Of a stretch of 64,000 bases of DNA, positions 10,101 through 64,000 are shown one piece after another. The number at the start of each line of letters is the position of its first letter. Within the stretch, counting starts at the first letter, position 1. Both the position numbers and the translations under genes were made by a program. The notes under the pieces are model-generated. The model saw only the letters and a list, made by a program, of their open reading frames with translations, had not been told where the DNA came from and did no database searches. Source of the stretch: Sipunculus nudus (Eukaryota; Annelida; Sipuncula; Golfingiida; Sipunculidae); NCBI GenBank assembly GCA_026874595.1, contig CM049306.1:102685142-102749141 (forward strand). The letters run 5' to 3'.

Positions 10101-13100
10101 GGTCTAGTTATGCCCCCGCCACAAAGTGGCTGGGGCATATAGTTTTACCCATGTCCGTCATTCCGTCCTTCCGTCCTTCCGTCATTCCGAAATCAAACAG
10201 TTGTACAGACTTTTTCGCAATGCCTGCAGATATTGGCCTGATTTTTGGTGTGTGGGCAGATATAGACCAGTTAAAGATCGAGTTCGCGTTTCGTCCCGGT
10301 TGACCTACTTTTGACTGTTTTACGGCTCCAAAACTTAGAAAATTTCATGAAAAATAGCAATTTCAAGACAAATACACATGTACGGACTTTTTTTTGCAAT
10401 GCCTGCAGATATTGACCTGATTTTTGGTGTGTAGGCAGATAATGACCAGTTACAGATCGAGTTCGCGTTTTGTCCTGGTTGACCTACTTTTGAATGTTTT
10501 ACGCCTCCTTAACTTAGAAAATTTCATGAAAAATAGAAATATTCATGACAGATACACATGTACGGACTTTTATTCGCAATGTCTGCAGATATTGGCTTGA
10601 TTTTTGGTGTGTGGGCAGATATAGACCAGTTACAGATCGAGTTCGCGTTTTGTCCTGGTTGACCTACTTTTGAATGTTTTACTCCTCCTTAACTTAGAAA
10701 ATTTCATGAAAAATAGAAATATTCATGACAGATACACATGTACGGACTTTTATTCGCAATGTCTGAGATATTGGCTTGATTTTTGGTGTGTGGGCAGATA
10801 TAGACCAGTTACAGATCGAGTTTGCGTTTCGTCCCGGTTGACCTACTTTTGACCGTTTTACAGCTCCTGAACATAGAAAATTTCATGAAAAATATGAAAT
10901 TTCATGACAAATACACATGTACAGATTTTTTTTTGTAATGCCTGCAGATATTGGCCTAATTTTTGGTGTGTTGGCAGATATTGACCAGTTACAGATCGAG
11001 TTCGCGTTTTGTCCCAGTTGACATACTTTTGACCATTTGACGGTGCTCTAACATAGAAAATTTCATAAAAAAGTGCACATGTATGGACTTTTTTTCGAGT
11101 GCCTGCAGATACGGGCCTGATTTTTTGTGTGTAGGCAGATATTGACCAGTTACAGATTGAGTTCTTGTTTTGTCCCAGTTGACCTACTTTTGACCATTTG
11201 ACTGCTCCTGAACATAGAAAGTTTCATGAAAAATAGAAATTTTCATAACAAATGCATATGTACTGACTTTTTTTTCCTCAATGCCTGCAGATACCACCCT
11301 AATTTTTTATGTGGGCAGATAATGACAGTTACAGATCGAGTTCGCGTTTCGTCCCGGTTGACTTACTTTTCATTGTTTTACGGCTCCTAAACATAGAAAA
11401 TTTCACGAAAGACAGAAATTTGTATGGAAAATGCACATGTATGAACTTTTTTTCACAATGCCTGCATATACTGGCATGATTTTTGGTGTGTTGCTTGATT
11501 ATGACCCGTTACAGATCGAGTTTGCATTTTGCCCTTGTTGACCTACTTTGGACCATACGACACCTCCTGAACTTAAAAAATTTTTCAAAATTTTACAAAT
11601 GTTTCTAATTTGCCCAAGGCGGGGGCATTCGTGTCGTTCCCACACATCTAGTTTTAGTTTTTGGATCCATTTGTAAGTAACTTTCACTTGGCACCCCTAC
11701 TCCTGAGAACAACAGTTAAGTGATCAAAATGTGTATTTTAGAGGTTTTGGCCTATTTTACAATTGTTAACACAAATTATAAACAAGAGAATGTTCTATAA
11801 TAACAGGAGATATTTATATAATTATAGAAAAATAAGGGTTATATAATGTAAGGCTGTGTTGTTTGGGGTCCTTGACTCATTGTGTCTCCTAAGTCAAATT
11901 TATTGGCTTAATTTTCATATTCTGCCATAAAGTTCTGCATGTCGTTGATCACATCACCAAGAAAGTGAAGCTATATTTGAGCAGTTTTGGTCATTACATA
12001 TCAAATTTAAAAAACAATTGTTTATCAGTGTGTAAAAAAATTAAAAACCCTCTATACATGGGACTTCTTTAAATTTATACAGAATTCAGTAATGATCTGC
12101 ATCAAAGGGGTACCATAATCACACCCTGATGACAATGATGATTAACCAGCATTTATGGCCAGGACTTGTGCACTTTTATCAGAAAATGTCCAGATGTAGA
12201 TTTCAGGGAATTAAATGGTTGGTGTGAAGGGGATTCTTCAGTAACCTTAATCCATTTGACATATCTCCTGTCATGACTGACAAGCCCTAATGTTATTACT
12301 ATGCCAATGCACCTTATCTAATTATCCTTGCTGAATGGGATAGCAATGCACATTAAAGTTAGACATACTGACTGGGTCAAAGAAAGCTTCCAAGCTGAAG
12401 TTTTTAATAGTGCTCTGATCAGGAACTCTGACATGGAGAGCCGATGACACTGTTTATCTAAATTTACTTTTGTGCACAGCTAATGACTTGAATCTTTACA
12501 ATTCAGTCACATGTAAACTGATATTTATCTGTAAATACATGTCAGGATATCCTATATTAGTAATTTTACCACTACTTTATACTTTGGAATTTATACATAA
12601 ACAAGAAAAAGTCCAAAGCATATTGCCCATAAAACCCACATGGGTTTATCCAGCTGGGTATCACCGCCAAACATTAAATTGAAGAGACATATTCACAAAC
12701 CAGGCATGTTATGTTAGCTCCAGTGACATGGATCACTGCTTGATATGAGGCTGCTTCATAGGATTGAATGTGTGCAATCAGTTGTATCTGCCACTGGTGT
12801 GTTTGGTGTATCTCAGTTCACAAACCCAATACTTCATTTTATACTATGGCTTATTTCAAAACAACATATATAGTAAAACTGTTTAAAATTTTCTTTTTTT
12901 ATTCATTTTTGCTGTAAAGTATAAACTAAATATATAATTTGGTGTTTACTGGTTAGATACACAGTTATGTTTTAACATCAACGCACTTCCTGGATCAGTA
13001 TTCTTCTTCTTTAATGAGGCATGTTACCCTTAAAATATGTTCTGTGTGTGGAAGCAGATGAATCATTGGTGTCACAGAAATGCAGGACAACAATACCAGG

Positions 13101-16100
13101 AACAGAACAAAGTCTAAATTGTTACTCATTATTAATATGTTGGCCTTGTATCCAGGCCAGTGAATGGTACTTTGTCAAAATGGTATTCCCCTCAAGGTAA
13201 CATGTTGCTGTGCAAATAACGTTGTCCAGCCTACCAATTTCATAAATAGTAAATAATAAAAGATTATCTGTTCTTCTCATAACCTTCATAAAGTCAGTAG
13301 CAGACTGGAAATATCAAAGGACAAATATTATGAAATATAAATTGTTGCCCATATTTATAATCCACATCACTAATCCGGAAGTTGACTCGCTCAAATCTGC
13401 TTTTGATGGTATGTTTGAAACAGAGTATGCTAACAGAGCTGGGGTAATGCTGGTATTTTTTAAGTTACTGCAATTGAATTTTAGAAAAAAATCATATTGA
13501 ACAAATGATAAATTGGGTGTTGCATGGCCCAGCCTTTGCTATCACTGAATCTGTTCTTTTGATATTACAGGTGTATGTTATAACAGTGACAGTCGGTCAG
13601 TACACATGGATAGTGAAGCATCGGTACAGTGACTTCCTTGACATTCATGAGAAGGTGAGTCTTGCACACTGAAATCAGTAAAAATAAAATCTGTAAATTA
13701 TATTCACCTGTTTCAGTATTCCTGGAGGCTGTACCCGTCTTCTGTCTAAACCATTCTTCCGTAGACCATTGTTCCTTCCATCATTCATCCCTAGAACATT
13801 CTTCACTGGATATTCACTTGGCTAGTATCCCCAGTCCAGACCATTCACTTGACCATTCTTTCTGGGAGCCTGGGGCCATTTATAATTTGACTAGTTTTCC
13901 ATGGATGTGTGTCTTACACCTAGTCCAGTCCCTCTTTTCTTAAGGACTGTTATTGCTTAAAAGATTTTATGTTGTATTGATAACTGGTAATAAGAAACTA
14001 AGATGAACCAAATTAAAATGTTTATTTCTTTAGAATTTAGAAATTACTAGAAAATGAGGACCCATTGGGTCTTGTTGCAAAGGAAGGGTATATTGCTGTG
14101 TAGTGTGTCCCAAGAGCTGTAAGGTAGCAAACTCCCCAGACCCATAAGGTAGCGACGTTATGTGCGTGATACGGTACCAGTTATTTATGTCTTTGTGGTA
14201 ATGGGCCATGGTGAAGGTCGGCAGTGGTGAGGTGGAGAGCAGTGTAATGGAGTGCAACAGACCTGTGATGTGATGCTTCCATGATCCAGGGATTCAATTG
14301 TGTGCAAGTAGAAGGGCCAAATTGGTGTGTATCTTAAAGTTAGGGCATCTGACTGAAGCTGATAGCAAAATTGTTCCACTGTCATGGCTCATTGTAGCCG
14401 CAAAAACAAAGTTTTGCGGATACTATGTTTTTGACCGGGTTCCGCTGCCGCCGCCGTATTCATTTCCGGAGAACTCCTTTGAGGTTTGACTAATTGACCT
14501 GAAATTCGGCATGCGTATATATCCTGGATAGCTTTCTTGATTTATGACAGGTGGCGCCACCTACATTCAAGTTCGCGCTGCAGACATCCATGCTTAAATC
14601 TCAGGACTGGTTTTACGTAGATTTCTGAAAATTTGAATGTGTATAGATCTCACATAGCTCTTTATCATTCGCAAAACTGGTGGTGCCACCTGCAACCTTT
14701 TTTGCTCAGCATCTGTCTGTTTGTCTGCCGTGGGATAAAATCACTCATATCTAGGCAGTGGTTTGACATATTTGCCTAAAATTTTGCAGGTTTATACATC
14801 CTGGACAGCTTTCTTGATTTTATGACATGTGGCGCATCCTATATTCTAGTTTATGCTGCAGACATCCAAGCTCATATCTCAGCATTTGTTTGACCAATTG
14901 GGCCAAAATTTTGCATGTGTATAGATCTTACATAACTCAACTGGAGGGACCACCTGCAACCATTTTAGCACAGCTTCCGTCTGTTTGCCTGCCGTGGGCA
15001 AAAATCACTCATATCTCAGTAGTGGTTTGACTTATCTGCCTAAAATTTTGCGTGTTTAGACATCTTGGATAGCTTTTTGATTTTTTGGCAGGTGGCACCA
15101 CGTACATTCATGTTAATGCTGCAGACATTCAGGCTTATATATCAGGACTTATTGGATATATCCCCCTGAAATTTTGCATGTGTATAGATCTCACATAGCT
15201 CTTAATCATACACAAAACTGGTGGTGCCACCTGCAACTTTTATGCACAGCATCGGTCTGTTTGTCTGCCATGGGATAAAATCACTCATATCTTGGCAGTG
15301 GTTTGACTTATCTGCCTAAAATTTTGCACATGTATACAACTTGGACAGCTTTCTGGATTTTGTGGTAGGTGGCGCAACCTACATACACATTTTTGCTGCA
15401 GACATCCATGCTAATATGTAACACACCTCACTCTATTTCCTCTTGCCACTCAATCCATGCCTCACTTCACCCATTCCACTCTGATTTTGGTGGTCCGTCT
15501 GTTTGTCTGCCTTGGGCTAAAATCACTCATATCTCAGTAGTGGTTTGACTTATCTGCCTAAAATTTTGCGTGTTTATACATCTTGGATAGCTTTCTTGAT
15601 TTTTTGGCAGGTGGCGCCACGTACATTCATGTTAATGCTGCAGACATTCAGGCTTATATCTCAGGACTGATTGGATATATCCCCCTGAAAGTTTGCATGT
15701 GTATAGATCTCACATAGCTCTTAATCATACACAAAATTGGTGGGGCCACCTGCCACCATTTTTGTACAAGTCCTGTTTGTCTGCTGTGGAATAAAATCAC
15801 TCTAATACATGTAGTGGTTTGACTTATCTGCCTAAAATTTTGCACATGTATACAACTTGGACAGCTTTCTGGATTTTGTGGTAGGTGGCGCAACCTACAT
15901 ACACATTTTTGCTGCAGACATCCATGCTAATATGCAACACACCTCACTCTATTTCCCCTTGCCACTCAATCCATGCCTCACTTCACCTATTCCACTCTGA
16001 TTTTGGTGGATACATGTAGTCGCTTGTCGACTAGACATATTCTAGTTTCTGCAGGTTTTCTTGTACAAACAAAAAAACAGACAGGACAATTTTAGTAGTA

Positions 16101-19100
16101 TATAGAAGATAGATGTTTCATTATGTGATTATCCACATTGGACTGTGTATTTATTTGAAAATGCATCTAAAAATTGATATCACTAGCTCTAAAATAAAAC
16201 AATTTTCTCTTTGGTTCCCAATTCACAAAACAGTTATGACATGTGGAGACATCTTCAGAGGACAATGAAAACTTAAACACAGCCACTATGACATATAGAG
16301 ACATCTTCAGGGGAAAAAAAACTAAAAAATTGAGAAAGCAAAAGGGGGACAACAAGGGGCAGAAGCAGGTGACTGATTTTCCACAAATTTGCTTGTTAAG
16401 ACTGGTCTGTATAGGTTGTCCTCCCCTGTACCTTCAGGATTTCAGATATTTCAGACAAATTCTCAAATATCTCAAGAAATCTTGCATGGATTGATCCCAA
16501 AATCAAGTTGATCGAAGATCATGGATAGGGTTGTCATGTTCAAGAAACTGGTGGCCCCACCTATTATTCTTTACTTGTTTTTGTGCCTTTTAATACCCCC
16601 CCTTAATTGCCACTTGACAGTACTATGAGCATTATAAGTCAAAAACTAATGGACAGATTTCTTTTATATTATGCATATACGTAGATATGGGTTATGGGGT
16701 GATGTGTATTTAAATTGGGGTCATAACTTTTTCTATGAGAGTGACCTTGACCTTGAATATTCCCATATTTTGTGAAATTCACACAAAATCTTTAATATCT
16801 CAGTAAGGGATACATTGAATGATCCAAAAATCAAATTGACCGAAGATCTTGGATAGCTTTGTCTTTTGCAGAAGACAGGTGGCGCCGCCTTGCGTCGTGT
16901 TCTTGTTAAAATGATGTTAACACAATAACTTTGTAAGAATTTGAGGTACAGTCACCAAACCCACAGGTTTGATGCAGCTTATCAACGGCTAGGTCAAGTT
17001 CGAACAGGGACGACCTTGATGCATTTTTTCAAGGTCACAGCAGCGATTACGCTCAAATGATATTAGGGCAGTAACTCAAAAAGAATTTGTGGTACAGTCA
17101 CCAAACCAACAGTTTAGATGCATCTTATCAAGGGCTAGGCCAAGTTCAAATATGGATGACCTTGATGCATTTTTCAAGGTTACAGTGGCGATAAAGCTGA
17201 AATGATGTTTACTTAATATCTCACTGAGGAATGCATGGATTGGTCCAAAAATCAAATTGACATAAGGTCTTTGAAAATCTTGTTTTCTACAGAAGACAGG
17301 TGGCGCCACCTTATGTTGTTTTCTTGCTAAAATGATGTTTTAATGGAATAACTTTGATACATTTTTTCAAGGTCACAGCAGCAATAACTAAAAAAAATTG
17401 TTGGTACAGTCACCAAACTTACAGGTTCTAAGATGCATCTTATCAAGGGCTGGGGGGGGGGGGGGGTAATTGTCTGGGGATATACTATGACACCTGCGAT
17501 GCCAAGAAATATCTAGTTAGATCTGAGAATAAATGAGCAATATCTTTTACCTTGGAGAAACCAGCCTAGTTCTAGGGCCCCATTAAGTTTATTAACAATT
17601 TAGAGACTATCATTAATTTAGTTGGAAAAACAAATATTTTGAATTTATTGCAATAATTATTGTATCCCAAGACTTAAAAATTGGGGATTCTAAGCTTAGT
17701 GCATGGTCAAATGACCACCATACTACAGGCACAGAAAAACTTTGTACACAAGATAACTAAAGAAATCTGGAAGGTGCAATGTTTTTCAGAAGAAGGGGGT
17801 CAGTTTTAAATGGGTTTGCCTAACATCTCGACATACATGCTACATCTTTGGTGAAAGTAATATCTAGTTGTATATAAGTTGCTTCATCAGTAAGTTGTTG
17901 TTTGATTTTTTAAAGCAAATCTTGTGTCATCAAAGCACATTCCTGAAGTACCTGTTTATATGTTTGCATTGTGATTGATTAAATCCTCACAGATTAGGCT
18001 GTTATACATAGTCGCTGAAGGCAGCTTAGTTTTTTGTGCATATTTAAATGAAGCAAATGAGGTCACCATGTGTATCATCTTGAACATTGGACATACTGCT
18101 GATAAATTACACACAGTTACAATGACTCATATAATTAGTCTCACTGAACGACACAGGTCTTTTGTGTGTTGTCCCGTACCAGAGCAGGCTGAGGAACAGC
18201 AATGTTTATCTCTGTCCTGAACTAGAAAAAGGAGGCTTGTGTGCCAGATATTTCTATTATGAATGATGTTCAGTGTTAGGTAGATGAAATATAATATAAT
18301 ACATATATTATATATAAGTATAATATACTTACAACTGTCTATTTACACTGGACACATTCCACATGTTTATTGCAAGGATATGATTGCTTTTTATAAAGCT
18401 TTACTAATAATATTTCAGCACTGTTTAGTCTCATAGTTTTGTGGTGGAGCATACTGTATTCTTCTTTAGATTTAGGCCAGTATGTATTTGGTAAAGTCTT
18501 AATATTTTATAAAGAGCAAAATCAGCATAATGTAATACATTTGGTGCTGTTATAGTAGTTACTAAAAGTAAGTACAAATCTATATTTGCTTAATGTACTT
18601 TTTTATTGTCAGGCCGTTTAGTGTCATATATTTGGATTGTCCCCTGCAGACCATTAATGTATTCATCAAAATCTGTTCAGGCTTTGATACTACATGTGAA
18701 GTGTGCTGTGTAGACTGTATTAAGATACATGATACAGCTGATTGATATGTCTGAAATATTCTCAGTATATTGAGAGAGGTCAGCTGATGTTTACCTGCTG
18801 AGGCCACTAGGGAGGGGAGGGGGAATTTGGTTATAGGATAATTAGGTTGTCCTACTGGTAATCCCTTGATATGCCTTTATTCTGCAGTTAGCACCCACTC
18901 AGTGAACAGTAATTTGATACAGATCTATCATTTAATGCCCCCTGACACCAGGACAGTATGATACTTTCATCTGTGTAGTTAAATCCTTGTCATGCATTGA
19001 CAAACTACCTACTCATTGCCTACTTTTACAGCACTCAGAGAGTATTCAGCATTTTAGATTACCTCTTGGACCATGATCCCCTTATCTGTGTTGTGAAGTC

Positions 19101-25100: not shown

Positions 25101-28100
25101 CACTGGGTTATAGACTTGTAGTTATCTCTGGTTCATGAATGCATTCATGAATATATTCTATAATATTATTTCAATAATCATTTCAGTTATATTTTATTTT
25201 AAAAAAATCATATGATTTTCTTATTATAAATTTTAAAAAAAATTATATTGGCACAATATTTGTTATTAAATTTTAATAAATAGTTAAACTCTTTTATTAT
25301 ATGTGCTGCTTATAAGTTATATGGCCAAGTCAAAATCTGTGTGACAATAGCACTCCATTTGTTTATAAAATAAATGAAATCAATCCTCTTCCCTGTCTCC
25401 AAAGATACTATCAAAATCATACATAAGCTAAACACCAACAACTCATAATAAAGCTTTTATTTATTACCACACTAAACTGGCATGTGCCTCTTTCCCAAAT
25501 CATATTTTTTATCATATATAACAGCTGAGCGCCGTGACCCATGGGTCCCTTGTTTTAGATTATCTCTGGTTATGATAGATCTGGCATAATTCACTCACAA
25601 TATAATACGTGGAAGGTATATTGCAGCTTATATTCCCAACTAATAATTTTCCTGTTCATAGAAAGATAATCACACTTCTGTCACAATTTTTAGCTCAGCT
25701 GACTGTAAGTCATCTGAGCTATAGCGATCACTCTTTGACCGTCGTCCGTCTGTCCATCCATCTGTCCGTCTGTCTGTCCGTTAACCTGGCACAAATCGTA
25801 ACCGCTGGACTTAGAATCTTGTAACTTTACATTCTGAGAGGTCCATTAAAAATCTCCTTGGAAACCAGAAATTAGGTCTCTGTTACCCATAACCTTCGAG
25901 CTATTGGGCCCCAAAGTACCCCCCCCCCCCCCAGAATATTCAAAAATTTCATACAAAAACTTCAATATCTCATTAACTACATCACTGATGGTCATGATTT
26001 TTTGCCTACATATTGATCATGAGAAGTTTCATCAGTTCCTGCAGACTGGTGGTGCCACCTGTATTTTTTTATTTTTTACGAATTTTTTTCTCTATTTCTG
26101 AGACCTTTAAAACTGTGAACATCTGTTAACAGGGCACAAATTGTAAAGACTGGACCTAGAATCTTAATTCTTGATACACTGAGAGACCTATGATAAGTCT
26201 CCATGGTAACCAGAAATAAGGTCTCTGTTACCCATATATTTAGAGCTATTGGGCCCCAAAGTACCCCCCCCCCCCCAGAATAGTCAAAAATTTCATACAA
26301 AAACTTAAATATCTCATTAACTACATCACTGATCGTCATTATTTTTTGCATACATATTGATCATGAGATGTTTCATCAGTGTCTGCAGACTGGTGGCACC
26401 ACCTGTATTTTTTTATTTTTTTACGAATTGTTTTCTCTATTTTTGAGACCTTTAAAACTGTGAAGATCTGTCAACAGGGCACAAATTGTAAAGACTGGAC
26501 CTAGAATCTTCATTCCTCACACAGTGAGAGACCTATGAAAAGTATCCATGGAAACCTGAAATAAGGTCTCTGTTACCCATATCCTTTGAGCTGTTGGGCT
26601 CCTAATTACCCCCCCAGAATAATGGAAAATTTGATAAAAACAAATTGCAACATCTCAATAACTACAACACTGATGGTCATGATTTTTGGCATACATATTG
26701 ATCAAGAGGTGTTCCATCAGTTCCTGTAGACTGGTGGTGCCACCTGTATTTTTTGAAATTTTTACAATTATTTTTCTCTATTTTTAAGACCTTTAAGGAT
26801 GTAGTTATCTGTCAACAGGGTACAAATCATAACGACTGGACCTAGAATCTTCATTCTTGATACACAGGGAGACCCATGAAAAGTCTCAATGGAAACCTGA
26901 AATTAGGTCTCTGTTACCCATATCCTTTGAGCTATAGCACTCCAAATTACAGCTCAGAATAATGGAAAAATTGTTACAAAAGCTGAAGTATCTGAACAAC
27001 TAATGCAGAGATCACCATAATTGTTTGTATGGATATTGATCATGGAGTTTTTCATCAGTTTCTGCAGACTGGTGGCACCACCTGTATTTGTTCGGTTTTT
27101 TTTACGAATTTTTCCCCCCATTTTTGAGACCTTTAAAGATATGAACATTTGTTAATTGGGCAGAAATCATAACAACTGGACCTAGAACCTTCATTCTGGA
27201 CACACTGGGAGACCCATAAAAAGTCTCCATGGAAACTTGAAATTAGGTCTCTGTTACCCATATCCTTCAAGCTATAGGACTCCGAAGTATCCCTTAGAAT
27301 AATGGACAATTTGATACAAAAGCTGAAGTATCTGAACAACTAATGCAGAGATCACCATAATTCTTTGCATGGATATTGATTATTGAGTGTTTCATCAGTT
27401 TCTGCAGACTGGTGGCACCACCTGTATTTGTTCGGGGTTTTTACGAATTTTTTTCTCTATTTTTGAGACCTTTAAGGATGCTGTCATCTGTTAACGTGGC
27501 ACAAATTGTAACAACAGGACCTAGAATCTTCATTCTTGTCATGCAAGGAGGCCAATGAAAAGTGTCTATGGAAACCTGAAATTAGGTCTCTGTTACCCAT
27601 ATCCTTCAAGCTATAGGACTCCAAAGTAATGGAAAATTTGATACAAAAGCTGAAGTATCTGAACAACTAATCCAGAGATCACCATGATTCTTTGCATGGA
27701 TATTGACCATTAAGTATTTTTATTAGTTTCTGCAGACCGGTGGAACCACCTGTTTATGCATTTTTTCTCTATTTTTGAGATATATAAATACAGTCACAAT
27801 CTTGGCCTGTTGGTTAATCTGTTTGATGCTTCAGTTGAATGGGTATATATTACCATTCTGATGATAAAATTTCCTTTTGTGAATGTCATCCCAGTCAGCT
27901 GAGTGTCATGACCCATGGGTCACTAGTTTTTCTGCACCATTTATAAAATTCATTCCATAAAACTCTTGAGCAATGATTAAAAAACACATCTTAAAACATA
28001 CACTTTTATCAGTTCCAATTGTTTCTTTGTCACCTGTTGCATAATATAAAATTTAATATAGTTACTGGATTTGCTTTGCAGCTGGAGTTATGTAATCCTG

Positions 28101-47022: not shown

Positions 47023-47024
47023 TA

Positions 47025-47185: not shown

Positions 47186-47493
47186 TACAATGGTGTCACT
47201 CTTCAGTGACAGTTTCTTCTGACCAGTGGTTGAAAAAAATATGTGAAGGTGATCTAGATTGCCTCTAAAATTTAATGGATTATTCCTTTGGTGTTACCCT
47301 GTATATAATTTGTTGTGTAAATTTGCTAAGAAGTAACAGGCCAGCCAATTGGCCCACCAGTGAACCAAGGGAAAAACATAATTATTGTGCAGGTATCAAA
47401 AAAACTAATAAAACCTCAGTTTTCAGGATTGACAAGAAATGCAATTTAATGTTTGTTGGTAGGCCAATGAAAAATGTTATACTTGTTGTCATT

Positions 47494-48547
47494 TTGTTGT
47501 CCCCCACTCCGTGGATGCGGGGATATTGATTTGGGTTTGTCTGTGTTTCTGTCCATCTGTCTAGCTGTCCATCTGTCTGTCTGATACTTTGTCTGTCTGT
47601 CAGGTTTTCGTTTCCCTGCGATAACTTTCCTAAATATTATCCGATTTCATTCAAATTTTGGTCAGTGATTGCTCTCAAGCTTACCTAGGTTGGGATTGGT
47701 TTTGGAGTGTCTGGCTTCTGTCTGTCTGTCACTTTGTCTGTCCATCTGTCAAGTTTTTGTTTCCATGCTATTACTTTCCTAAATATTATCCAAATTCAAT
47801 CAAGTTTGGGTCAGTGATTGCTCTCATGCATACCTTGGTTGGGATTGGTTTTGGAGTATCTGGCTTCTGTCTGTCTGTCTGTCACTTTGTCTGTCTGTCT
47901 GTCAGGTTTTCGTGTCTGTGCCATTACTTTACAAAATTTTATCTGATTTCATTCAAATTTTGGTCAGTGATTGCTCTCATGCTTACTTTAGTTGAGATTG
48001 GTTTTGGAGTGTCTGGCATCTGTCTGTCTGTCCGTCACTCTGTTTGTCAGTCCCTCAGATTTTCATTTCCATCTGATTACTTTCCTAAATATTATCTGAT
48101 TTCATTCAAATTTTGGTCAGACATTGCTCTCATGCATACCTTGGTTGGGATTGGTTTTGGAGTGTCTGTCTTTGGTCTGTCTGTCACTTTGTCTGTCCAT
48201 CTGTCAGGTTTCTGTTACCCTGCTATAACTTTCCTTAATGTTATTCAATGTCAGTCAAATTTTGGTCAGTGATTGCTCTCATGCTTACCTTGGTTTTGAA
48301 TTGTTTAAAGTGTCTTGCTTATGTCCCTCTGTCTGTCTGTCACTGTCTGTCAGTTTGTCAGGTTTTCGTTTCTGTAGGATAATTTTCCTAAATCTTATCC
48401 GATTTCATTCAATTTTTGGTCAGTGATTGCTCTCATGCTTACCCTTGTAGGGATTTGTTTTGGAGTGTCTGGCTTCTGTCTGTCTGTCTGGTTGTCTTTG
48501 ACAACTAGATCCAAAAGCGGGGGACATTAATTCCACGAATTTGCTTG
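47494..48547 (+). mobile_element. Helentron-like element with ~152-bp central repeats
   Basis: 5' GTCCCCC (47499-47505) is inverse to GGGGGAC (48519-48525); 3' end CTTG (48544-48547) followed by TTT. Six units contain TTTTGGTCAGTGATTGCTCTC, TTGGGATTGGTTTTGGAGTG and CTGTCTGTCTGTC runs. The unit is close to a multiple of three, which keeps a 204-codon frame open by chance (47658-48272). Confidence 0.78.
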
Positions 48548-48710
48548 TTTAGTTTAGTGATGTTATTTGATAATGCAATTATGTGAACGATTATTGATAC
48601 ATTTGTTGCCAGAAAATATGAATTGCTTAGTAAGATAATACATATTATTCCTTTGTATTCCATATTATTTCTTCTTGAGCTGATCTTTTCATAAATTTTT
48701 GTTTTTTAAG

Positions 48711-49365
48711 CTCAGCTGACTGAAATTCATCTGATCTTTAATGATGGGTCTTTGTCCATCACAAATTTTAACCACTGGACCTAGAAACTTCTAACAGCAC
48801 ATCCAGGGATTTCAATAAAAAAATCTCTTTGGAAACCTAACATTGGGAACCCCCCCCCCCCCCCCCCCAAGAATTATAAATAATTGGATACAAAAGCTAG
48901 AGTACCTTAATAACTAATGGATTGATCACCATAATTTTTTGCATACATATTGATCATCGACTCTTTTTTATCAGTTCCTGCAGACTGATGGCTCCATCTG
49001 TATTTTTTTCCTTTTTTTAACACATTTTTTTTCTCTCCATTTTTGAGACCTTCAAATAAAGTGGTCATCTGTTAACAGGGCACAAATTGTCACTGTTGGA
49101 CCTAGAATCTTCTAACATGACATGAAAGAGGACCATAAAAAATCTGTTTTGGAAACCTGTAAATAGGTCTCTGTTACCCATATCCTCTGAACTATCAGGT
49201 TCCTAAATACCCCCCCCCCCCCCAGAATAATTAAAAATTTGATACAAAAGCTCCAATATCTGAATAACCAATGCATGGATGGCAATGATTCTTTGCATTC
49301 ATATTGATCATGAAGTGTTTCATCAGTTCCTGCAGACCTATGATGCCACCTGTATTTTTTTTTTT
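48711..49365 (+). mobile_element. family-A element, 3' truncated
   Basis: Starts AGCTCAGCTGACTGAAATTC; two units with GGACCTAGAA(A/T)CTTCTAAC, C runs (about 48851-48867 and 49211-49223) and CTGCAGAC. It stops at a T run where the next element begins at 49366. Confidence 0.7.
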
Positions 49366-52300
49366 TTAGCGAACCTGTGAGCTATGCGATGGTGTGGTGT
49401 CGGCCGTCGTCCGTGGTCCGTCGTCTGTACGTTAACCTATACTATCTTGAAAACAGCAAGAGTTAGCATCATGAAATTTTATGCAAAAAATTAGTCATCT
49501 AAAAAACTCAATCGGATTTTGCTTATTTTTTGGCTAACTGCATTTTCTTAAATTTTATAGGGAAAAAGCAAAAAAACCTTAAAAATCTTCTTTTCCGAAA
49601 CTGTTCAGCCAAATTGTCCAATATTTCACAGAAATGATTCCTTGAACAATCTTTCTCAAGTTTGTTCGAATGGTTTAGGTTTGGTGATTTTTGGCCAAGT
49701 TACAGGAAGTTGAACTTAGTCATCTGTCAAAAAAAGCATACTAAAATTACAATCTCAGAAACAGCTGAAGCTATCATCACCAAATTTTATGCCAGTGTTG
49801 GTCACGTGAGTCATATCTGAATTTGAGGTATAGGTGGCGCCACCTGCATCGGCCTTTATTGTAGGGGGGTCATCACTGCCCGTATCATACTGACGGCTAC
49901 AAAATTCTGAATAATTCTTATAATAATTGTCTGTTATGGTTCCAAAGAATGAATTTTGGCTGAATTATAAAGATTGAATTGAGTCATTTTACCATATATA
50001 TAGCTGTGTGAAGCAGATACATCTAGCCGGGCATCAGTTTATCAGCATCCATTGCATCATGCCTCTATAGACATTTAGATTTCAGGATATCTATGGTTAA
50101 TATTGACAAGAATGTTTTTTTAAAAGCTTTTAAAAAATGTACATTCATGATTTTAGATATTCCTCATGCCAGGCATTGTTTCCAATCACAGGTATACAGC
50201 TCTCTGTGGGTATATAAAGACGGCTGTACATGGATTATAAATAATTGGTAACCATACTCAACTTAATTCAGATTTTGCCATCAGTGAGATGTATCTGTAT
50301 TATAATTTTGCATTCAGTTTTCAATAAAAACCTTAAAAAAATCTTCTCCTCCGAAACTGTCAAGCCAAATTATTCAATATTTCACAGAAATAATCATATC
50401 TGAATTTGAGGTATAGGTTGCGCCACCTGCATCGGCCTTTATTGTAGGGGGGTCATCACTGCCCGTATCATACTGACGGCTACAAAATTCTGAATAATTT
50501 TTATAATAATTGTCTGTTATGGTTCCAAAGAATGAATTTTGGCTGAATTATAAAGATTGAATTGAGTCATTTTACCATATATATAGCTGTGTGGAGCAGA
50601 TACATCTAGCCTGGCATCAGTTTATCAGCATCCATTGCATCATGCCTCTATAGACATTTAGATTTCAGGATATCTATGGTTAATATTGACAAGAATGTTT
50701 TTTTAAAAGCTTTTAAAAAATGTACATTCATGATTTTAGATATTCCTCATGCCAGGCATTGTTTCCAATCACAGGTATACAGCTCTCTGTGGGTATATAA
50801 AGACGGCTGTACATGGATTATAAATAATTGGTAACCATACTCAACTTAATTCAGATTTTGCCATCATAAAATAATCTTTTATACCATCTCTCTCAAGTTT
50901 GTTCGAATGGTTCAAGTTCGGTGAATTTTGGCCAAAATTACAGGAAGTTGAACTTAGTCATCTGTCCAAAAAAGCACACTAAAATGACAGTCTCAGAAAT
51001 GGCCGGAGCTATCATCACCAAATTTTATGCCAGTGTTGGTCACATGAGTCATATATGAAATTCAGGTATTGGTGGTGCCACCTGCATTGACCTTTTTTTG
51101 TACGGGGTCATTGGTCATCTGTACATTAACCCATAATTTCTCAGGAATAGCAGGAGCTACCAGCCCCAGATTTTATGCAATAATCTGTCACATATAAAAT
51201 TTTGTGGGATTCAGCTTTTTTTTCTTTACTATTTACTTAGATATTATAGGGAAAAAGCTGAAATACTTTTAAAAGTCTTCATGTAAACGGTCCAGCCAAA
51301 TTGTTCAATATTTTACAGAAATGATCCCAGAGGCAAGCCCTCTCAAGTTTGTTCAAATGGTTCGCACTTGATGAATTTTAGTGGAGTTACATGAATTTGA
51401 ACAGTCATTCAGCCAAGTAAGCATACTGACAAAGTAATCTCAGAAATGCAGAAGCTAGCATTACCAAGTATTGTGCAAATGATGGTCACATGACTCATAT
51501 TTGAAGTTGCAGATTTTGTGGTGCCACCTACATTGACCTGTTTTTTATGGGCAAAACCTCACAATTTTAGCCTCTTTCAGCTTTAAATGTTAATGATGAA
51601 ACTTTCAAGTTGAATCGTTCAATTTTTCAAAAGAACTATCCTAGGACATGGTTCTTTCAATCATATCAGAAAAGCTTAAGTTGGTCTTATGGCCATTATT
51701 ATGTCTATTCTTCTACAAAATTATTGTTTCAATTATAACTTCTGTAACATTGCACAAAAATTATTCTTAGGTCGCCTTTGTTCAAGTTTACTTGAATGAT
51801 TTTTTGCAGAATTATTGATCCTTTAACAATAAAAGGACTGCATCTTTTATCATTCTAGATATTTTGAATATGTCAGCTTTAAAAAAAAGCATTTTAGCCA
51901 AAGTCTTTCAGTATGTGTTAACAGTTTTACCATCAGGCCAAGATTGTGTATCTTTAATAGGTTGAGAAACTGCCAACTGTTTCAGATTTGGCAACAGATC
52001 AAGAGTTCAATCAGTGCAGCCAGATATAGGTCAAGAGTTCAATCAGTGCAGCCAAGCACAAGGCATGTGATCACCTCATGGGTGACATGTGAACACCTCA
52101 TGGGCACCATGTGATCACTTCATGGGTGTCATCCCCCTCAGGGCAGGGCCCCTGCATGAGCTTATGCAGTGGTGTGGCTACTATTTCAGATTTGGCAACA
52201 GGCTAGAGGTCAGTCTGGATCTATTTATAGCTCTGTCAGACTGCCAACTGTATCAGATTAGGCAACAAGTCAAGAGTTCACTCAGTGCAGCCAGGTATGG

Positions 52301-53111
52301 GTCAGGAGTTTACTCAATGCAGTAGCTGCATTCTATTTATAGCATTGGCAGACTGCATACTGCATCAGATTTGGCACCAAAGTTCAGCTTGGATCTATTT
52401 ATATCTTTGGCAGAGTGCCAACTGTGTCAGACTATGCAACAGGTCAAGAGTTCATTCAGTGCAGCCAGGTACAGGTCAAAAGTTCACTCAGTCTAGCCAG
52501 GTGCAGGTCATGAGTTCACTCAGTGCAGTAGACTGAGCCAGCAAATTTGTCACAGTTCACTTGGGGCAACTGCCTTTCTCACCTAAGCCTGGTCAGCCCC
52601 ATGCATCAGACTCAAGGTAAGTTTGATGTATTGGCCTGATATTTTGACCTGTCTGTGTGTCTTTGATGCCTTTCTCATTCACAAGACAGGTGACTCTTGC
52701 ACAGTGTATGTGCATGCTTATTTCTACAGAGAAAATTTGATATATCAGCCTGAAATTGGGCATATATATACTTATCGAATAGCTTTGTTGTATACAAGAC
52801 TGGTGGTGCCCCTACAGTGTGTGTTCCTGCTTATTTTCAGGAGGGGTTTGATATATGAAACTGAAATTGGGCATATGTATATATCTCTGATAACTTTGTT
52901 GTATACAAGACTGGCGGTGCCAGCTACAGTCATTTTTGTGTTGTGTGCACCCATGCCAGAATTTCAGCAGTGATGTTTGTGTAATTGTTTCTTATTCAAA
53001 ATGTTTAGTACTTGCATTGTTCATATACATGAGAAGTAATGGTCCAGCATTGAAGCATTATACCTGGTGTATTTCCATATGCATAGGTTCGCATTAGGCC
53101 TGTAGGCCTTG
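49366..53111 (+). mobile_element. 3.7-kb Helentron-like element (GCGAACCT family)
   Basis: 5' GCGAACCT (49369-49376) is inverse to AGGTTCGC (53085-53092). Two AGGCCT palindromes (53096-53109) precede CTTG (53108-53111) and TTTC. Internal units of a few hundred bp carry CAAATTTTATGC, TTTGTTCGAATGGTT and GTGGCGCCACCTGCAT. A 473-bp segment is duplicated inside (49811-50283 and 50394-50866), and a short-repeat zone with GAGTTCA(A/C)TCAGTGCAG fills 52000-52540. No replicase ORF. Confidence 0.68.
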
Positions 53112-56454: not shown

Positions 56455-57176
56455 ATTGTATCCACCAAAACAAAGTTTTGCGGATACTATGTTTTTGACC
56501 GGGTTCCTCTGCAGCGTACGTTTCCGGAATAGAACTCTGAGACCACTGGACAGATTTTCCGAAATTTTACATGATTATCAGGTCACATGTGAACTGGCGC
56601 CAAAATATTTTGCTTTGACCTCAGACCTTTCCTCTCTCCAGTGCGTCCATCTGTGCGTCTGCTTTGACTTATTAACCCACATATCTTCAACTCATTTGAC
56701 CTATCAGGAAAAAATTTTGCACAAATGCTGCCCTTGGATAGCTTTATAACATCATACATAAAAAATGGTGGTGCCACCTGCAACCATTTTTGTACAGCGT
56801 CCATCTGTCTGCCGTTGGATAAATTCACTCATAGGCCTATCTCGGCAGTGGTTTGACTTATCTGCCTAAAATTTTGCATGTATATACATCTTGGATAGCT
56901 TTCTCGATTTTGTGGCAGGTGGCACCATCACTTTCACGTTCAGGCTGCAGACATCCAGGCTGATATCTCAGGACTGGTTTGACTTATCTGCCTAAAATTT
57001 TGAAGTTGTATACAACTTGGATAACTCTCTGGATTTTGTGGCAGGTGGCCCCACCTACATACACACTACATACCTCACTCTGTTTCCCCCTGCCACTCAA
57101 TTCATGCCTCACTTCACCCATCCCACTCTGATTTCGGCGGATACACGTAGTCGCTTGTCGACTACCCGAATTCTTG
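56455..57176 (+). mobile_element. Helentron-like element (GCGGATAC family), copy 2, nested
   Basis: ATTGTATCCACCAAAACAAAG at the 5' end; 3' end GGCGGATAC, hairpin GTAGTCG-CTTGT-CGACTAC, CCGAATT, CTTG (57173-57176). Internal AAAATTTTGCATGTATATAC and GGTGGTGCCACCTGC units as in copy 1 at 14391. It sits inside the family-A-related segment. Confidence 0.82.
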
Positions 57177-57226
57177 TTTCAGTTATAATATTAAAAAATC
57201 TTTTAAGGTGACACTGTTACATTTTT

Positions 57227-60212
57227 AGCTCAGCTGACTTTAAGTCATCTGAGCTATAGTCATGGTCCATTGTCCATCGTCCTACCGTCTATTTGTCCGT
57301 CTGTAGATGTGGCACGTTTTGAAACCGTAAGACCAAGGAATCCAAAATTCGGCACAATGTTAGATGTCCCCAAGATCTCCTACCAAGCTGAAAACTGGGT
57401 CTTTACAATTTCGTTCCTTTGAGAAATTAAGGAAAAACATCAATTTGTTATTAAAAACCTATTTTCATACTGCAGGACTGCTTAATATCAGAACCACTAA
57501 TCTGATTCCTCATATTTACCATAAATATTACTCTATATAGTTCCTATGTATACATGCCAGAAATTAGGTCTGTATTTTATAATTTAAAAAAGTAATGGGC
57601 CAAACATAATGCATTTTGTAAAAAATCAGGAAAGATATTTGATCACTTAACACAAAACATGTTAAAGCTAAGTACTTTTTAGCTCAGCTGACTATAAGTC
57701 ATCTGAGCTATAGTCGTGGTCCATTGTCCGTCGTCCGTCCATCTGCCTGTCTGTCCCTCCGTCCGTCTGGATGTCCATCCGTAAGACTGGCACGTTTCGA
57801 CACCATTGGACCTATGAATATGAAATTCAGCATACAGTTAGATGTCCCCAAAATCTCCTACCATGCCGAAAATTTGGTCAATAGGACTTTGTTCCTTCGA
57901 GATATTAAGGAAAAACCTCAATTTTTTATTAGAAATCTGTTTTTACACTTCAGGACTGCCTAATATCAAAACCACTCATCTGGTTTTCTTCATATTTATC
58001 ATAAATATTCCTCTATATAGTTCCTATGTACATGCCAGAAATTAAGTCAGTATTATTTAATTTAAAAAAGTTATGGGCCCAAACATAATGGACTTTGTAA
58101 AAAATCAGGAAAGATATTTGGTCACTCAAGACCAAAAGTGTTAAAGGTAGGGACTTTTTTTCAGTGATACAACTTTAATCAATCAAAATTTAATTGTATA
58201 CCAAAAATTAGATCAAAATCGGTTAAATTTTTTTAAATATTGGCAAAAATATAAAATTGGTACCTTAAATTTTGCCCAAATTTGGCCACGGCACGTTTTT
58301 TTCCTGTAAGTACTGTGGAGTTAATTTTTTTGTTAGCATTTTGTCTGTTAACACCAAAAATTTGAAACCAGTTGATCAAAAACTGTAGATTTTATTCAAG
58401 ATTTCAAGCACCATGTCACATATTGTTTACATCAAACTAGTGTTATGCAGTTTGCTAGAGCTCAGCTCCCCAGCTTCAGCTTTAAGTTCCTAAAATTTGG
58501 CATACAGTTAGATGTCTCCAAAATCCCCTACCATGCCAAGAATTTTATCACTAGGACCTAATTCTTTCGAAATATTAATGAAAAACTTCATTTTTCCATT
58601 AAAAACCCATTGTTACACTGTAAGAATGACTAATATCAAAACCACTGATCTGACTTTGATCTTATATAATATACATATTTTTCTATACATTCGCTATGCA
58701 CATGCCAGAAATGATGTCAGTATTGCGTAATTGTTTTAAGTTATGGGCCCAAACATAATGCACTTTTTAAAAAATCAAGAAATATATTTACTCCCTTAAC
58801 AAGAGGATTGCTGAAGCTAGAGATTTTTTGTCAGGGATGTAACATTATTAAATCAAGATTCAATTGAATACAAAAAATTAGTTCTGAATTTTTCAAATTT
58901 TATAAGTTATTAGTATAAATATAAAATTTGAACCTTAAATTTGCCCAACTTTGACCATGGCACGTTTGTTTCCTGAGAGCACTGATGATATAATTTTCAT
59001 ATCATGCACACATAAGGATTTCATCTTTGTAGTTTAGAAAGCTGAAAGAAATTGGCCAAATATTGTAGCTTTTATTAATGTTTTTATGAGACCATGTCAG
59101 ACCCAGGTTCAATCCAGCCCCTCTTCAGTCACCTGTATGTTGACCTTGTTGACCTTTCATCAGATTATGCATGCTTGAGGGAAGCATACACTGGGTCAGC
59201 CAGGCAGCTAATGCCCAGCCACAGTTGATCCAGGTGTCCAACCCAACTCATCTAGTAGTTGTTTTGAAAAACAACATAACAATAAACAATAAATTAATAA
59301 TTTTGTATTGTTTTTTATAACAAATTAAATAAAAATTAATAGAAAAATAATTTGATAGTTGAAGAGTAACAGAAAATTAATTTGCAGTTACTGATGATGT
59401 AAGAATCTTGTATGGATGGATAGAATGTCATTGTTATTCCAAATAATACCATGCAGTCACCTTTGGTATTTTTCAGTTAAATTTTAATGATAAAAAAAAT
59501 AAATCATTATTCATTACTAATCATTAGGGATCATATGAAGGAAATTAATGATAGACAAAGATGCAGTTGATAATATTAATCTAGATTCCTACTGTGTCTA
59601 GTGTGTAGATTGATGTGAAATTAGTCCAAAATGAATATATTACATTTATTTTTTTTTTCAATATAAATAAAAGCCGCAAAACCAGGTACTTATGATCATT
59701 ATTTAAATGTGTGAATTTTGTATATACTGGATTCTCAACATCATTGTTTGGTGAAAACAATATAAATACCAGACATGGTGCGAATACTTTGCAATTGTAT
59801 TAAAATACGAATATGAAAATGTACTGCATTATAAAATTTCTTGCATAAAGACTGGGAATTCAGGTAAAAATAAAACTATATGAATACCAATGCAAATACT
59901 TTCAAAATGTATTCATGAATGCATTCATGGATATATTCTTTAATATTATTTTGATAATCATTTCAGTTATATTTCATTTTAAAAAATCATACAATTCTCT
60001 TATTATTTTTTTATTAAAAATTATATTTGGGACAATATTTGTAATTTTTTTTAATAAATAGTTAAACTCTTATATTATATGTTCTGCTTATAAGTTATAT
60101 GGCCAAGTCAAAATCTGTGTGACAATAGTACTCAATTTTTTAATCATTTCTAAATCATATTTTTCTATCATATATAACAGCTGAGCGCCGTGACCCATAG
60201 GTCCTTTGTTTT
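57227..60212 (+). mobile_element. family-A tandem copies
   Basis: 5' ends AGCTCAGCTGACTTTAAGTC at 57227 and AGCTCAGCTGACTATAAGTC at 57681, both with CATCTGAGCTATAGTC and GTCCGTC runs. Units of about 450 bp carry GATGTCCCCAA(A/G)ATCTCCTACC and ATGTACATGCCAGAAATTA. The 3' portion (59590-60212) ends CAGCTGAGCGCCGTGACCC and a changed terminus, CCTTTG. Confidence 0.7.
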
Positions 60213-61367
60213 CTCCATCTTTTTGCCTGTTTAAAATATACAATAATTATGAATAAACTTTTTTATCCTGTAAGCACTGTTGAATTAAATTTCATATCCT
60301 GTATGTATATGCAAGGGTGCAATAATTGTTTGAACAGTAGTTCTATTGCTATGGCATAAAATTTAAAAATTTAAGAAAATATTTACAGAGAGACAGAGGT
60401 CCTTCCACCTGTTGAATGGGGATGTTATGGCAACTGTATACATATGATTAAATAGAAAAAAAAGGGTTTATTAAAGAAATTGGATCTCACTAGACAAATG
60501 TGTAAATGTTGAATTGTCAACAGCTTATCAAAAAGGTAACCAATGGAAACGCATGGTCAGATCTCAAAATATTATTTGCAACAATTTCCTCAATCATATC
60601 AACCAACCATGGCCTAGATAACCTCTTCCTCTCAGACTTTATCTACATTTCATAATATTTTAGATATTAACCTTCCAGTGTTTGAGTAGTGTTGTCTGTC
60701 TCTCTCTCTCCTTTTCTCTCTAAATCCAACTCCTTGCTGCCCTCACTGTTCCCTTCTCCGAACCCCATCCTAGTGTCAGTCTCAGTAAACAATAACAAGA
60801 TGAATCAGATATATTCATATATTATATTATGTATAACTATTTGTTCATAGGTACCTATGTACATGCCATAAATTATGTCAATATTGTGTAATATGTAGAC
60901 GTGGTGGGCATCAAAATAATTAACCTTGTCAAGACTGAAGAGATATCATGTCATACAGTGACAAATTCATAAATCCCCTCATCAGCATAGTTAATCATAA
61001 CATCATATCTGTCAAATTGAAATCTTTCAGACTTCCATACACTATAGATCCTTCTACAAATAGCCTTATCATCATTCTCCTGCTGCTTATTACTGCTATC
61101 ATTGAATTCATATTTGCTCAAATATATCGCTATTTTCAACCCTCCCAAATAAATAAAAAAAATAAAACACTATATTTTACTCCATATTAATCCATCAGTC
61201 AGGTTATTTCATATATCATTTACTCACATATTACATTATATTCCTTTATTATAGCGCGATATGTCCATAATATTCATAAGCTTTATCGACTCGATATAGT
61301 ATTACAATGGTGATACATTTATAATCCAATCACGATCAGCTGAGCGCCGTGACCCTTTGGTCCCTTG
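60213..61367 (+). mobile_element. AT-rich segment ending in a family-A 3' terminus
   Basis: No gene seen. CAGCTGAGCGCCGTGACCC and CCCTTG end at 61367, with TTT following. The 5' end belonging to this terminus could not be found. Confidence 0.5.
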
Positions 61368-61369
61368 TT

Positions 61370-61927
61370 TAACTCGGCTGACAAAAACTCGCCTGAGCTT
61401 TGGTCATGGTCCTTTATCCGTCATCCGTTGACAGGGCACGTTTTAAAATCGTTGGACCTACGAATCCAAAATTTTGCATACAGATAGATGTCCCCAATAT
61501 CTTCTACCATGCCGAATATTGGGTCACTAGGACTACTTTCATTCGAAATATTAAGGAACAACCTCAATTTTCCATTGAAAACGCATTGTTACCCTTCAAG
61601 ACTGTCTAAATGAAAACCACTGTTCTGACTTTGATCATATTTAATATGTGTATTCCTCTATATATTTCCCATGTACATACCAGAAATTAGGTCAGTATTG
61701 TGCAATTTCTTGAAGTATGGGCCCCAGCATAATGCACTTTGTAAAAAAAATTATGAAATTTATTTACTCACTTAACATAATTGTTGAAGCTAAAGATTTT
61801 TTCAGGGATATATCTTTATTAAAACCAGTATCTTAAAATTTGTCCAGATTTGACCATGGCACGTTTTTTTTTCCAGTAAGTGCTGTAGATTCGATTTTCA
61901 CTGCATGCAGATATAAGCATTTCACCT
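61370..61927 (+). mobile_element. family-A element, 5' end abutting the previous 3' end
   Basis: AACTCGGCTGACAAAAACTC and GCCTGAGCTTTGGTCATGGTC form the 5' hairpin. One unit follows with GATGTCCCCAATATCTTCTACC, then GACCATGGCACGTTTT. Truncated at about 61927. Confidence 0.65.
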
Positions 61928-62323
61928 GTTAAAATCTGCGTTGGCGCAGGGTCGTCTGTCCGCCGTCCTCTGTACGTTAACCCATATTATCTCAAAAACC
62001 CTAGCATCACCAAATTTTATGCAAAAAAAAATTTAAAAAAATAAGTCACCTTATAAAGGACGGTTTTTGCTCAGTTATTGCTTATATGATGATTGGTCCA
62101 TACATGGGAGAATTTCATAACCGTCAGGATATTGCCGACAATTAGTGATCTTAGGTTTCTTTTAACTTTATCTTAAGAACTGTTCACGCGATCACTCTGT
62201 AATTTAATATGGTGACTGGTGCCTGTTAAAATCAAATGTGGCTGCCAGACAGCCATCTTGAATTCCTGGGCATACCTGGGTCCTTACCAAGGATCTTAAC
62301 AGTTCCGGCACATCAGTTCTTGT
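61928..62323 (+). mobile_element. truncated repeat with CTTG 3' end
   Basis: Begins GCGTTGGCGCAGGGTCGTCTG with GTACGTTAACCCATATTATC, like the GCGAACCT family just after its 5' end. Ends GGCACATCAGTTCTTG followed by TTTTT. Confidence 0.45.
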
Positions 62324-62378
62324 TTTTCATTTTTGGCTCAATTAATGGCCATTCTGAAACTAACAAATAGCAGTATTG

Positions 62379-64000
62379 TTAGCGAACTTGTGAGCCTTTG
62401 CGATGGTGTAGCGTCCTCCGTCTTCTGTAAATGAACCCATACTATCTCAAAAATGGCAGGAGCTAGCATCACAAAATTTTATGCAAAAAAATCAGGGAAA
62501 CTTTACAACTTTACAACTTTACAGGGAAAAGGCTAAAAAAAAAACTTTAAAAATCTTTTCCCAAACTGTCCAGTCAAATTGTTCAATAGTTTACAGAAAT
62601 AATCTCTGGAACAATCTCCCTTAAGTTTGTTCGAATGGTTCCAGTTCGTTGAATTTTGGCCGGGATACAAGAAGCTGAACTTAGTCATTTGGCCAAAGAA
62701 GAATACTAAAATTACAATAAAATATCAGAAACGGCTTGAGCTATCATAACCACATTTTATGCAAATGTTGGTCATATGACTCATATTTGAAATTAAGGTT
62801 TTGGTGGCGCCACATGGATCAACCTTATTTTCTACGAGGGTCATCGGTCACCAGTACATAAACCAATAATTTCTCAGGAATAGCGGGAGCTAGCATCCCC
62901 AAATTTTATGCAAAAACCTGTCACATATCAAATGTTGTGGGATTGAGCTTTTTTGTGGCGCCACCATCATTAACTTACTTTTTACCGGGGGGGGGGGGGG
63001 GGTTAAAAAACCTTTGAAAATCTTCTTCTCTGAAATCATTCAACCAAATTGTCCAATATTTCACATAAATGACCCCAGAGACGAGCTCTCTCAAGTTTGT
63101 TCAAATGGTTTGGGTTAGCTGAATTTTGGCCGAGTCACTGGAATATTAACTTAGTCATTTGGCCAAGCAAGCGTACAAACATAATCTCAAAAACGACAGG
63201 AGTTTTGTGCAAATGTGGGTCACATGACTCATATTTGAAATTGCAGTTTTTGTGGCGCCACCTACATCGACCTGGTTCTATAACGTTCAAAAACTTCATA
63301 ATTTTTGCCTCTTTCAGCTTAAAAATGTTTAATAATGAAACGGTCACGCTGAATCGTTTAATTTTTCACAAGAATTATACTAGGGTAAGGTTCTTTCAAT
63401 TGTATTAGAATAGATTGGATTCGTTGATTTTTTATAGAGTCATAGAAAGCCGAAATTGGTCTTGTAGCCATTAGTAAGCCTATTTCAAACTGAGGGCTGC
63501 AATAGTCTTCTTCTGCAACACTGTTGTATCAACTTCTGTAACATTGCACAAAAATGATTCTTAGGAGGCCTTTGTTCAAGTTTACTTAAATGATTTTTGG
63601 TAGAATTATTGGACGTTTAACAATGAAAGGACTGCATCTTTATTATTCTAAGCATTTTGATAAAAAAAAATTTATGGATATGTCAGCTTGAAAAAAAAAC
63701 ATTGTAGTCAAAGTCTTTCAGTATGTGTAAACAGATTTACCAAAAGGCCAATATTGTGTCTGTAGCTGTAAATAGCTTGGCAGACTGCCAACTATTTCAG
63801 ATTTAGCATCAGCAGTAGCTGCAGCTAGCAATTTGTTCCGGTTCACTCGGGGCAACTGCCTTCCTCACCTTAGCTTGGTCAGCCCAGTGCACCTGACTCA
63901 AGAGAAATTTGATGTATTGGCCTGTTATTTGGACATGTCCGTGCATCTTTAATGGCTTTTTCATACACAAGACTGGTGTTGCCACCTAAAATTACTTTTG
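62379..64000 (+). mobile_element. GCGAACCT-family element, cut by the window end
   Basis: TTAGCGAACTTGTGAGC start; collinear with 49366 onward. It lacks the duplicated 473-bp segment and the short-repeat zone at 52000-52540 but keeps the blocks CTCGGGGCAACTGCC and TTGGTCAGCCCA. A 16-base G run lies at 62987-63002. Confidence 0.7.

Follow-up and report, generated by a model that had tools for sequence, protein, structure and literature searches.

The question raised by a 64,000-nucleotide stretch of the Sipunculus nudus genome (C1:102685142-102749141 of 1.43 Gb; the whole stretch is called the window below) is what its six repeat families, here A to F, are, how they move and why their copies lie on one strand. 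An earlier interpretation from the letters alone, the sequence-only reading, had described five of these families as related non-autonomous rolling-circle elements that dominate the locus. As a whole, the data are very probably best explained by HINEs, i.e. non-autonomous Helentrons, which are mobilised in trans and join an open T-rich strand. Moreover, in the mapped part of the genome insertion direction is common to the families over about 100 kb and tends to run with gene direction, which suggests entry into one exposed strand.

The families share one plan consisting of a 5' hairpin, its arm repeated in inverted form near the 3' end, a 3' hairpin, CTAG or CTTG, and T's. In A, B, C, D and F the 5' arm is one half of the 5' hairpin and thus a palindromic subterminal inverted repeat (subTIR); no clear hairpin was found beside the 5' arm of the single E 5' end seen, that of the window copy. 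A microsatellite of the GTCC, TGTC or CGTC type follows the 5' end in A, C, D and E, and long tandem repeats lie inside A (179 bp), C (340 bp) and D (about 153 bp). The 3' hairpin of A is GTGTCG-TTC-CGACAC in genome copies, is mutated in the window copy and carries a paired change in one A copy (L020). On this anatomy and the evidence below, we assign families A to F to the HINEs with the same high confidence as the explanation as a whole.

All arm and stem-loop motifs quoted in the sequence-only reading lie where it had placed them. Subterminal inverted pairs exist in all six families of the window. However, the pair GTATCCACC/GGTGGATAC proposed for B joins arms of two separate copies. GGCGGATAC (57136) stands at the end of the copy at 56458, and the 3' arm located at 16005 is part of the copy starting at 14394. 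Kinship among the families was not supported beyond the common plan, and the claim that they dominate the locus went too far, as the segments found total about 15.3 kb of 64 kb, roughly a quarter. These segments are as follows.

10110-11651, plus strand: HINE of family A; both ends are present in 20 of 20 fetched genome copies, which were chosen for both arms.
10110-10138, 10154-10189 and on to about 11583, plus strand: 5' hairpin, TCCGTC-type microsatellite and 179-bp array of this A copy.
11618-11628 and 11648-11651, plus strand: 3' arm and CTAG of this A copy, which also has the mutated 3' hairpin.
14394-16045, plus strand: HINE of family B, copy 1, to which the GGTGGATAC arm at 16005 belongs.
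56458-57176, plus strand: HINE of family B, copy 2.
25692-27926, plus strand: full HINE of family C with 5' hairpin, CGTC microsatellite, 340-bp array, 3' arm, hairpin TGACCCATGGGTCA and CTAG; Rep-helicase elements have a 3' end that matches its last 36 bp.
8752-8953, plus strand: 5' fragment of family C.
48709-49367, plus strand: 5' part of family C, which stops at the start of E.
57227-57304, plus strand: 5' part of family C, 50 bases beyond B copy 2.
57681-57762, plus strand: 5' part of family C.
25520-25552, plus strand: 3' end of a C-like subfamily (5 of 33 mismatches to the C pattern), of the type found behind the L031/L032 Rep-helicase element.
60176-60208, plus strand: 3' end of a C-like subfamily (7 of 33 mismatches).
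61335-61367, plus strand: 3' end of a C-like subfamily (6 of 33 mismatches).
47499-48547, plus strand: HINE of family D with 5' hairpin, TGTC microsatellite, array of about 153 bp, 3' arm, AATTCCACGAATT palindrome and CTTG.
16365-16395, plus strand: weak D-like 3' end (8 of 31 mismatches), which may be due to chance.
49368-53111, plus strand: HINE of family E, outer ends.
62382-63978, plus strand: E-related fragment.
38023-39104, plus strand: HINE of family F with 5' hairpin, 3' arm, hairpin TGGCACC-TGT-GGTGCCA and CTAG.
17212-17518, plus strand: F-related 3' fragment with terminal CTAG.

All families recur in the genome more often than by chance. Counts are sums of forward and reverse matches, and the reversed pattern served as control. 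The A arm, of which each element has two, matched 7,835 times compared with 107 in the control. For the 3' motifs we obtained 5,462 matches for B, 6,429 for C, 1,102 for F, 9,064 for E with at most one mismatch and 339 for the 23-base motif of D with at most one mismatch (95 exact), and none in any of the five controls. Family D, represented by copies L074-L078, is far rarer than the other families.

The sequence-only reading had proposed to test for a fixed 3' end and for insertion without target-site duplication (TSD), and the outcome in the copies sampled does not refute it. Twenty inverted arm pairs of A, the first ones listed apart from three pairs of 3.2-6.4 kb that were passed over, were analyzed with flanks of 150 bases. 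T's precede the 5' arm, and all 20 copies end at one 3' position with CTAG (19/20) or CTGG (1/20) and then TT; two positions on either side of the insertion are occupied by T in every copy. The sampled ends of B, D, E and F likewise lie at one position each and are followed by T, with CTAG in 7 of 7 B and 5 of 5 F copies, CTTG in four and CCTG in one of five D copies, and CTTG in 3 of 3 E copies, where the CT belonged to the search pattern. For C, the window copy and the autonomous loci described below show the fixed end with its palindrome, and T's adjoin the ends of C to F. At the other side, the 5' arm was present in four of five fetched D copies; no B (0/7) or F (0/5) 5' end lay inside the fetched stretches, since these ends fell outside them. 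After removal of the T's the two junctions of the A copies match over a mean of 0.75 bases, compared with 0.70 for randomly paired flanks, and L001 is the lone copy of the 20 with a six-base match. Hence no duplication beyond T's was found in A, apart from that match.

The same was observed at one empty site of B. A B copy is nested in the Rep-helicase lineage H4, and H5 represents the matching empty site. Comparison of the empty CTTCTTTTTAGG with the filled CTTCTTATT-element-TTATAGG revealed no duplication beyond a few T/A letters, in flanks which are only about 71-73% alike. The nested B was also considered as the terminus of H4 itself. This was rejected, as three copies have the B element at the same position while it is missing from H5, which indicates an old nested insertion.

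Elements were further found close to one another. The same sequence, TTTATCATATATAACAGCTGAGC, follows both the A copy L001 and the C-type autonomous element L046, a short distance upstream of a C-like element's 3' arm, and one insertion point may thus have been used repeatedly. In L066 (about 700-760) and L004 (near 85) elements stand in tandem and in one direction, and the next element starts in the T-rich stretch behind the prior CTAG. Besides, B and E 3' ends are 173-179 bases apart on one strand at C1:6600180, 7034591 and 7261362, as if the two had been copied together as a composite unit.

The sequence-only reading had proposed a search for Rep-helicase elements with the same ends, and elements with the same 3' end were detected for two of the six families. 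A search with Helitron_like_N, in which 150 of 195 candidates were scored, listed at least 143 matches in the genome; among these none lies inside the window, where eight of the open reading frames (ORFs) listed were scanned for domains. We examined 26 Rep loci, comprising six of 14 kb and 20 stretches downstream of Rep. A C-type 3' end is located downstream of Rep and on its strand at eight loci (H4, H6, L046, L047, L048, L050, L051 and L052), and an A-type 3' end at one fetched locus, L049. No partner of B, D, E or F was found in these 26 loci, which were taken from the at least 143 matches listed. L046, L047, L051 and L052 lie at separate places and are about 98% alike, and their mutual match stops at the C-type end CTTG|TT. 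Variant C ends occur in two more distant lineages, L031/L032 (H6) and L048/L050, and in the latter one pair of the hairpin is changed on both sides (2 of 11 rows, one event). When 40 of 384 candidates were scored against the 3' region of L049, 30 of the 40 other matches stopped at query positions 584-590, with CTAG|TT at 580-585. For one of these 30, C5:20312746, a co-oriented Rep match lies 3.4 kb upstream. As far as searched, these 3'-end links of A and C to autonomous elements are new. Together with the fixed 3' ends and the lack of duplication beyond T's in A and at one B site, they support the non-autonomous rolling-circle identity which the sequence-only reading had assigned.

With regard to the proteins of these loci, Rep, a PIF1 helicase and a C-terminal endonuclease all score over the cut-off in H1. 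In H4 this applies to Rep and PIF1, with Exo_endo_phos at 22.5 bits (cut-off 24.5), and the endonuclease in the C-terminal piece of L049 reaches 23.0 bits, just under the cut-off. Deubiquitinase-type domains were also seen (L021/L027), of the OTU type in H1 and herpes-tegument-like in H4; such domains are described for Helentrons in passages of PMC9741609. A weak AGCTCACCTGATT near the left side of H4 was rejected as a C-type 5' end because it has no hairpin partner and homology continues past it.

The second part of the question concerns the common strand. In the window, 12 3'-end matches (27% mismatch allowed) and 16 of 16 BLAST segments are on the plus strand, and the sole minus-strand matches come from reading the 5' hairpins of A and C in reverse. 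This is also the strand of the following frame.

43504-46014, plus strand: nischarin-like ORF with a C-terminal PH domain, on the same strand as the elements.

To the same effect, 322 listed elements mapped on C1:0-16.4 Mb (the first 100 each of B, C and E, and 22 of F) form 85 strand runs, where 161 (sd 9) are expected and the minimum of 10,000 shuffles is 127. The longest mapped run, on the minus strand (C1:114280-1075372), comprises 33 elements from four families. Elements of different families agree in strand in 26 of 28 pairs below 5 kb, 87 of 102 (85%) at 5-20 kb, 130 of 165 (79%) at 20-50 kb, 187 of 281 at 50-100 kb, 304 of 503 at 100-200 kb and 455 of 898 (51%) at 200-400 kb. When strands were shuffled within families, none of 2000 shuffles reached the observed agreement in any bin below 200 kb, compared with 755 of 2000 at 200-400 kb. 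The bin below 5 kb may hold composite units (nine different-family pairs are closer than 1 kb, three of them B-E pairs at 173-179 bases), and we therefore place weight on the bins from 5 kb upwards. After clusters closer than 5 kb had been collapsed, agreement over all families was 90 of 105 (5-20 kb), 132 of 175 (20-50 kb), 195 of 296 (50-100 kb) and 319 of 531 (100-200 kb). A copies, oriented by their own sequence, match the strand of the nearest B, C, E or F element in 18 of 20 cases, and a simple fit of the decay of agreement gives a length of about 100 kb. No description of co-orientation of Helitron-like elements was found in the titles, opening lines of abstracts and passages covered by the literature search, most subscription journals lying outside it; as far as searched, regional co-orientation across families is new.

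The orientation of genes was compared in stretches of 5 kb around the first 14 of 69 kinase-motif matches. HINE matches were counted at eight of these loci and are on the coding strand in seven, L053 being opposite. Short D matches (32-46 bases; L056, L057 and L062) were excluded from this count as they lie in, or resemble, the TGTC microsatellite of D; they are on the strand of the gene in L056 and L062 and opposite in L057. L056 also has a C 5' end on the coding strand, seen in the fuzzy scan only. Within the mapped first 16 Mb of C1 the ankyrin motif had no match and the kinase motif a single match (L053, at C1:9135112). The zinc-finger motif had two. C1:15236866 has the orientation of an element 6.6 kb away; C1:2748429 likewise agrees with its nearest mapped element, but at a distance of about 106 kb such agreement carries little weight.

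The mechanism that we favour for these observations is that Rep-helicase-endonuclease proteins move the HINEs in trans by reading their hairpin-bearing ends. Rep would nick at the 5' hairpin and one strand would be peeled off, the 3' hairpin plus CTAG or CTTG would terminate strand transfer, and the transferred strand would be joined between T's in an exposed target strand. The element strand would then become the target strand, and insertion direction would report which strand was open. Two candidates for this strand are equally suitable, the non-template strand in transcribed DNA and, where forks move in the direction of transcription, the lagging-strand template. Such a report of the open strand fits both the regional co-orientation and the coding-strand bias.

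Several observations weigh against movement in trans into an open strand. HINEs and autonomous elements have only the terminal 30-40 bases in common and no body. No autonomous 5' end was found in the fetched 5' stretches, and two copies were still matching at the far end. At 17 of the 26 Rep loci (H1-H3, H5 and L033-L045) the fetched stretch contains none of the six ends, and H5 is among them although it is 93% identical to H4 over 6 kb. In the domain scan, the pieces of H6 matched Rep and PIF1 but no endonuclease. The gene-strand sample is small and post hoc and includes the clear exception L053. Moreover, long interspersed nuclear elements (LINEs), represented by 63 reverse-transcriptase motifs on C1 among 100 listed of 1,008, agree with the strand of the nearest HINE in 4 of 4 cases up to 20 kb, 10 of 13 up to 50 kb and 12 of 18 up to 100 kb. 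Counted as LINE-HINE pairs, 5 of 5 agree below 20 kb, 7 of 12 at 20-50 kb, 12 of 30 at 50-100 kb and 26 of 51 at 100-200 kb. Either chance or a wider property of the genome may lie behind this, and as LINEs partly co-orient, the specificity of the effect for Helentrons is weakened.

Other explanations have to be considered for the elements and for their direction. The repeats could be miniature inverted-repeat transposable elements (MITEs), i.e. transposons with terminal inverted repeats, which was the first classification of pearl. Their short inverted arms, many copies and lack of visible coding capacity would fit. However, MITEs show a constant-length TSD, which was found neither in A nor at the one B site; the arms are subterminal with T outside, the 3' hairpin is asymmetric, the targets are T-tracts, and the 3' ends of A and C are shared with Rep-helicase elements. 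We therefore regard MITEs as extremely improbable. As sampled ends of A to F adjoin T's, the strand bias could also follow passively from an inserter seeking T-runs that are commoner on the coding strand. Runs of at least four T compared with A number 755 to 657 on the coding strand of the 14 gene loci, and runs of at least five number 238 to 235; in the five gene loci without a HINE match, runs of at least four number 215 to 233. These ratios are far from 7 to 1, and target availability therefore does not explain the strand bias, which makes this explanation highly unlikely.

The main rival is selection, by which elements would insert on both strands and those antisense to a gene would be purged for disturbing the transcript. 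This would account for the predominance of the coding strand near kinase exons (7 of 8 loci) and for LINE motifs, which may co-orient as well (10 of 13 within 50 kb). However, the 85-86% agreement found for the mapped elements at 5-20 kb, also with clusters collapsed, would demand that nearly all elements lie within transcription units, and a run of 33 mapped elements of four families spans C1:114,280-1,075,372 on one strand. We thus consider selection rather unlikely as the cause. It is doubtful, too, that orientation simply tracks fork direction through the lagging-strand template, with the gene correlation being secondary since forks tend to run with genes. The coherence over about 100-200 kb would agree with such a dependence, as would the orientation of IS200/IS605, which according to passages of PMC5371812 recapitulates replication direction, and by our own reasoning co-directional forks would turn the coding strand into the lagging-strand template. 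The agreement with gene strand is equally explained by transcription itself, however, and where forks run with genes transcription and replication predict one and the same strand.

Similar elements have been described in other animals, and the HINE plan itself is already published for oyster (passages of PMC7492417) and for mite and fly (passages of PMC4067079). Like Cg_HINE/pearl of Crassostrea gigas, as portrayed in parts of the study of Vojvoda Zeljko et al. 2020 (PMC7492417), the families described here have a 5' subTIR with an adjacent inverted repeat, a microsatellite, satellite-like central repeats and a 3' subTIR plus palindrome, and insert in T-rich sites without TSD; this likeness rests on the plan and not on sequence comparison. 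In that study the HINEs could not be linked to autonomous elements, whereas here two end types are tied to them via their 3' ends; integration in both orientations is described there and, in the same passages, no regional co-orientation reported. HINE/DINE-1 and Helentrons of mite and flies, as described in sections of Thomas et al. 2014 (PMC4067079), likewise have palindromic subTIRs and a 3' palindrome, insert at T-rich or TT sites with a variable number of T's and no target modification, and have a Rep-helicase-endonuclease partner. The three Drosophila DINE-1 are reported there to be 98% identical to their partner, in contrast to the terminal 30-40 bases shared here. As a separate observation in the window, a 4.7-kb array (30359-35067), in which an 80-bp unit composed of two 40-bp halves is repeated about 59 times, is tied to no HINE family.

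In bacteria, IS200/IS605 elements use an HUH-type nuclease, move by peel-and-paste and are not known to use a helicase. Their orientation reflects the single-stranded template, as set out in passages of PMC5371812; here regional coherence and gene concordance were measured, and the elements would work alike without being members of that bacterial group. It is possible, at somewhat less than an even chance, that insertion of Helentron-type elements is restricted to whichever strand is open in the germ line, so that HINE strands would record the polarity of transcription or forks in domains of about 100-200 kb and form a eukaryotic counterpart of the IS200/IS605 rule. Co-orientation thereby offers a testable handle on whether Helitron-like elements insert into single-stranded DNA in vivo, and on when that DNA is open. 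If insertion bias rather than selection is the cause, HINE strands could become a sequence-only proxy for the direction of transcription or replication in the germ line, which, if true, would serve species without functional data.

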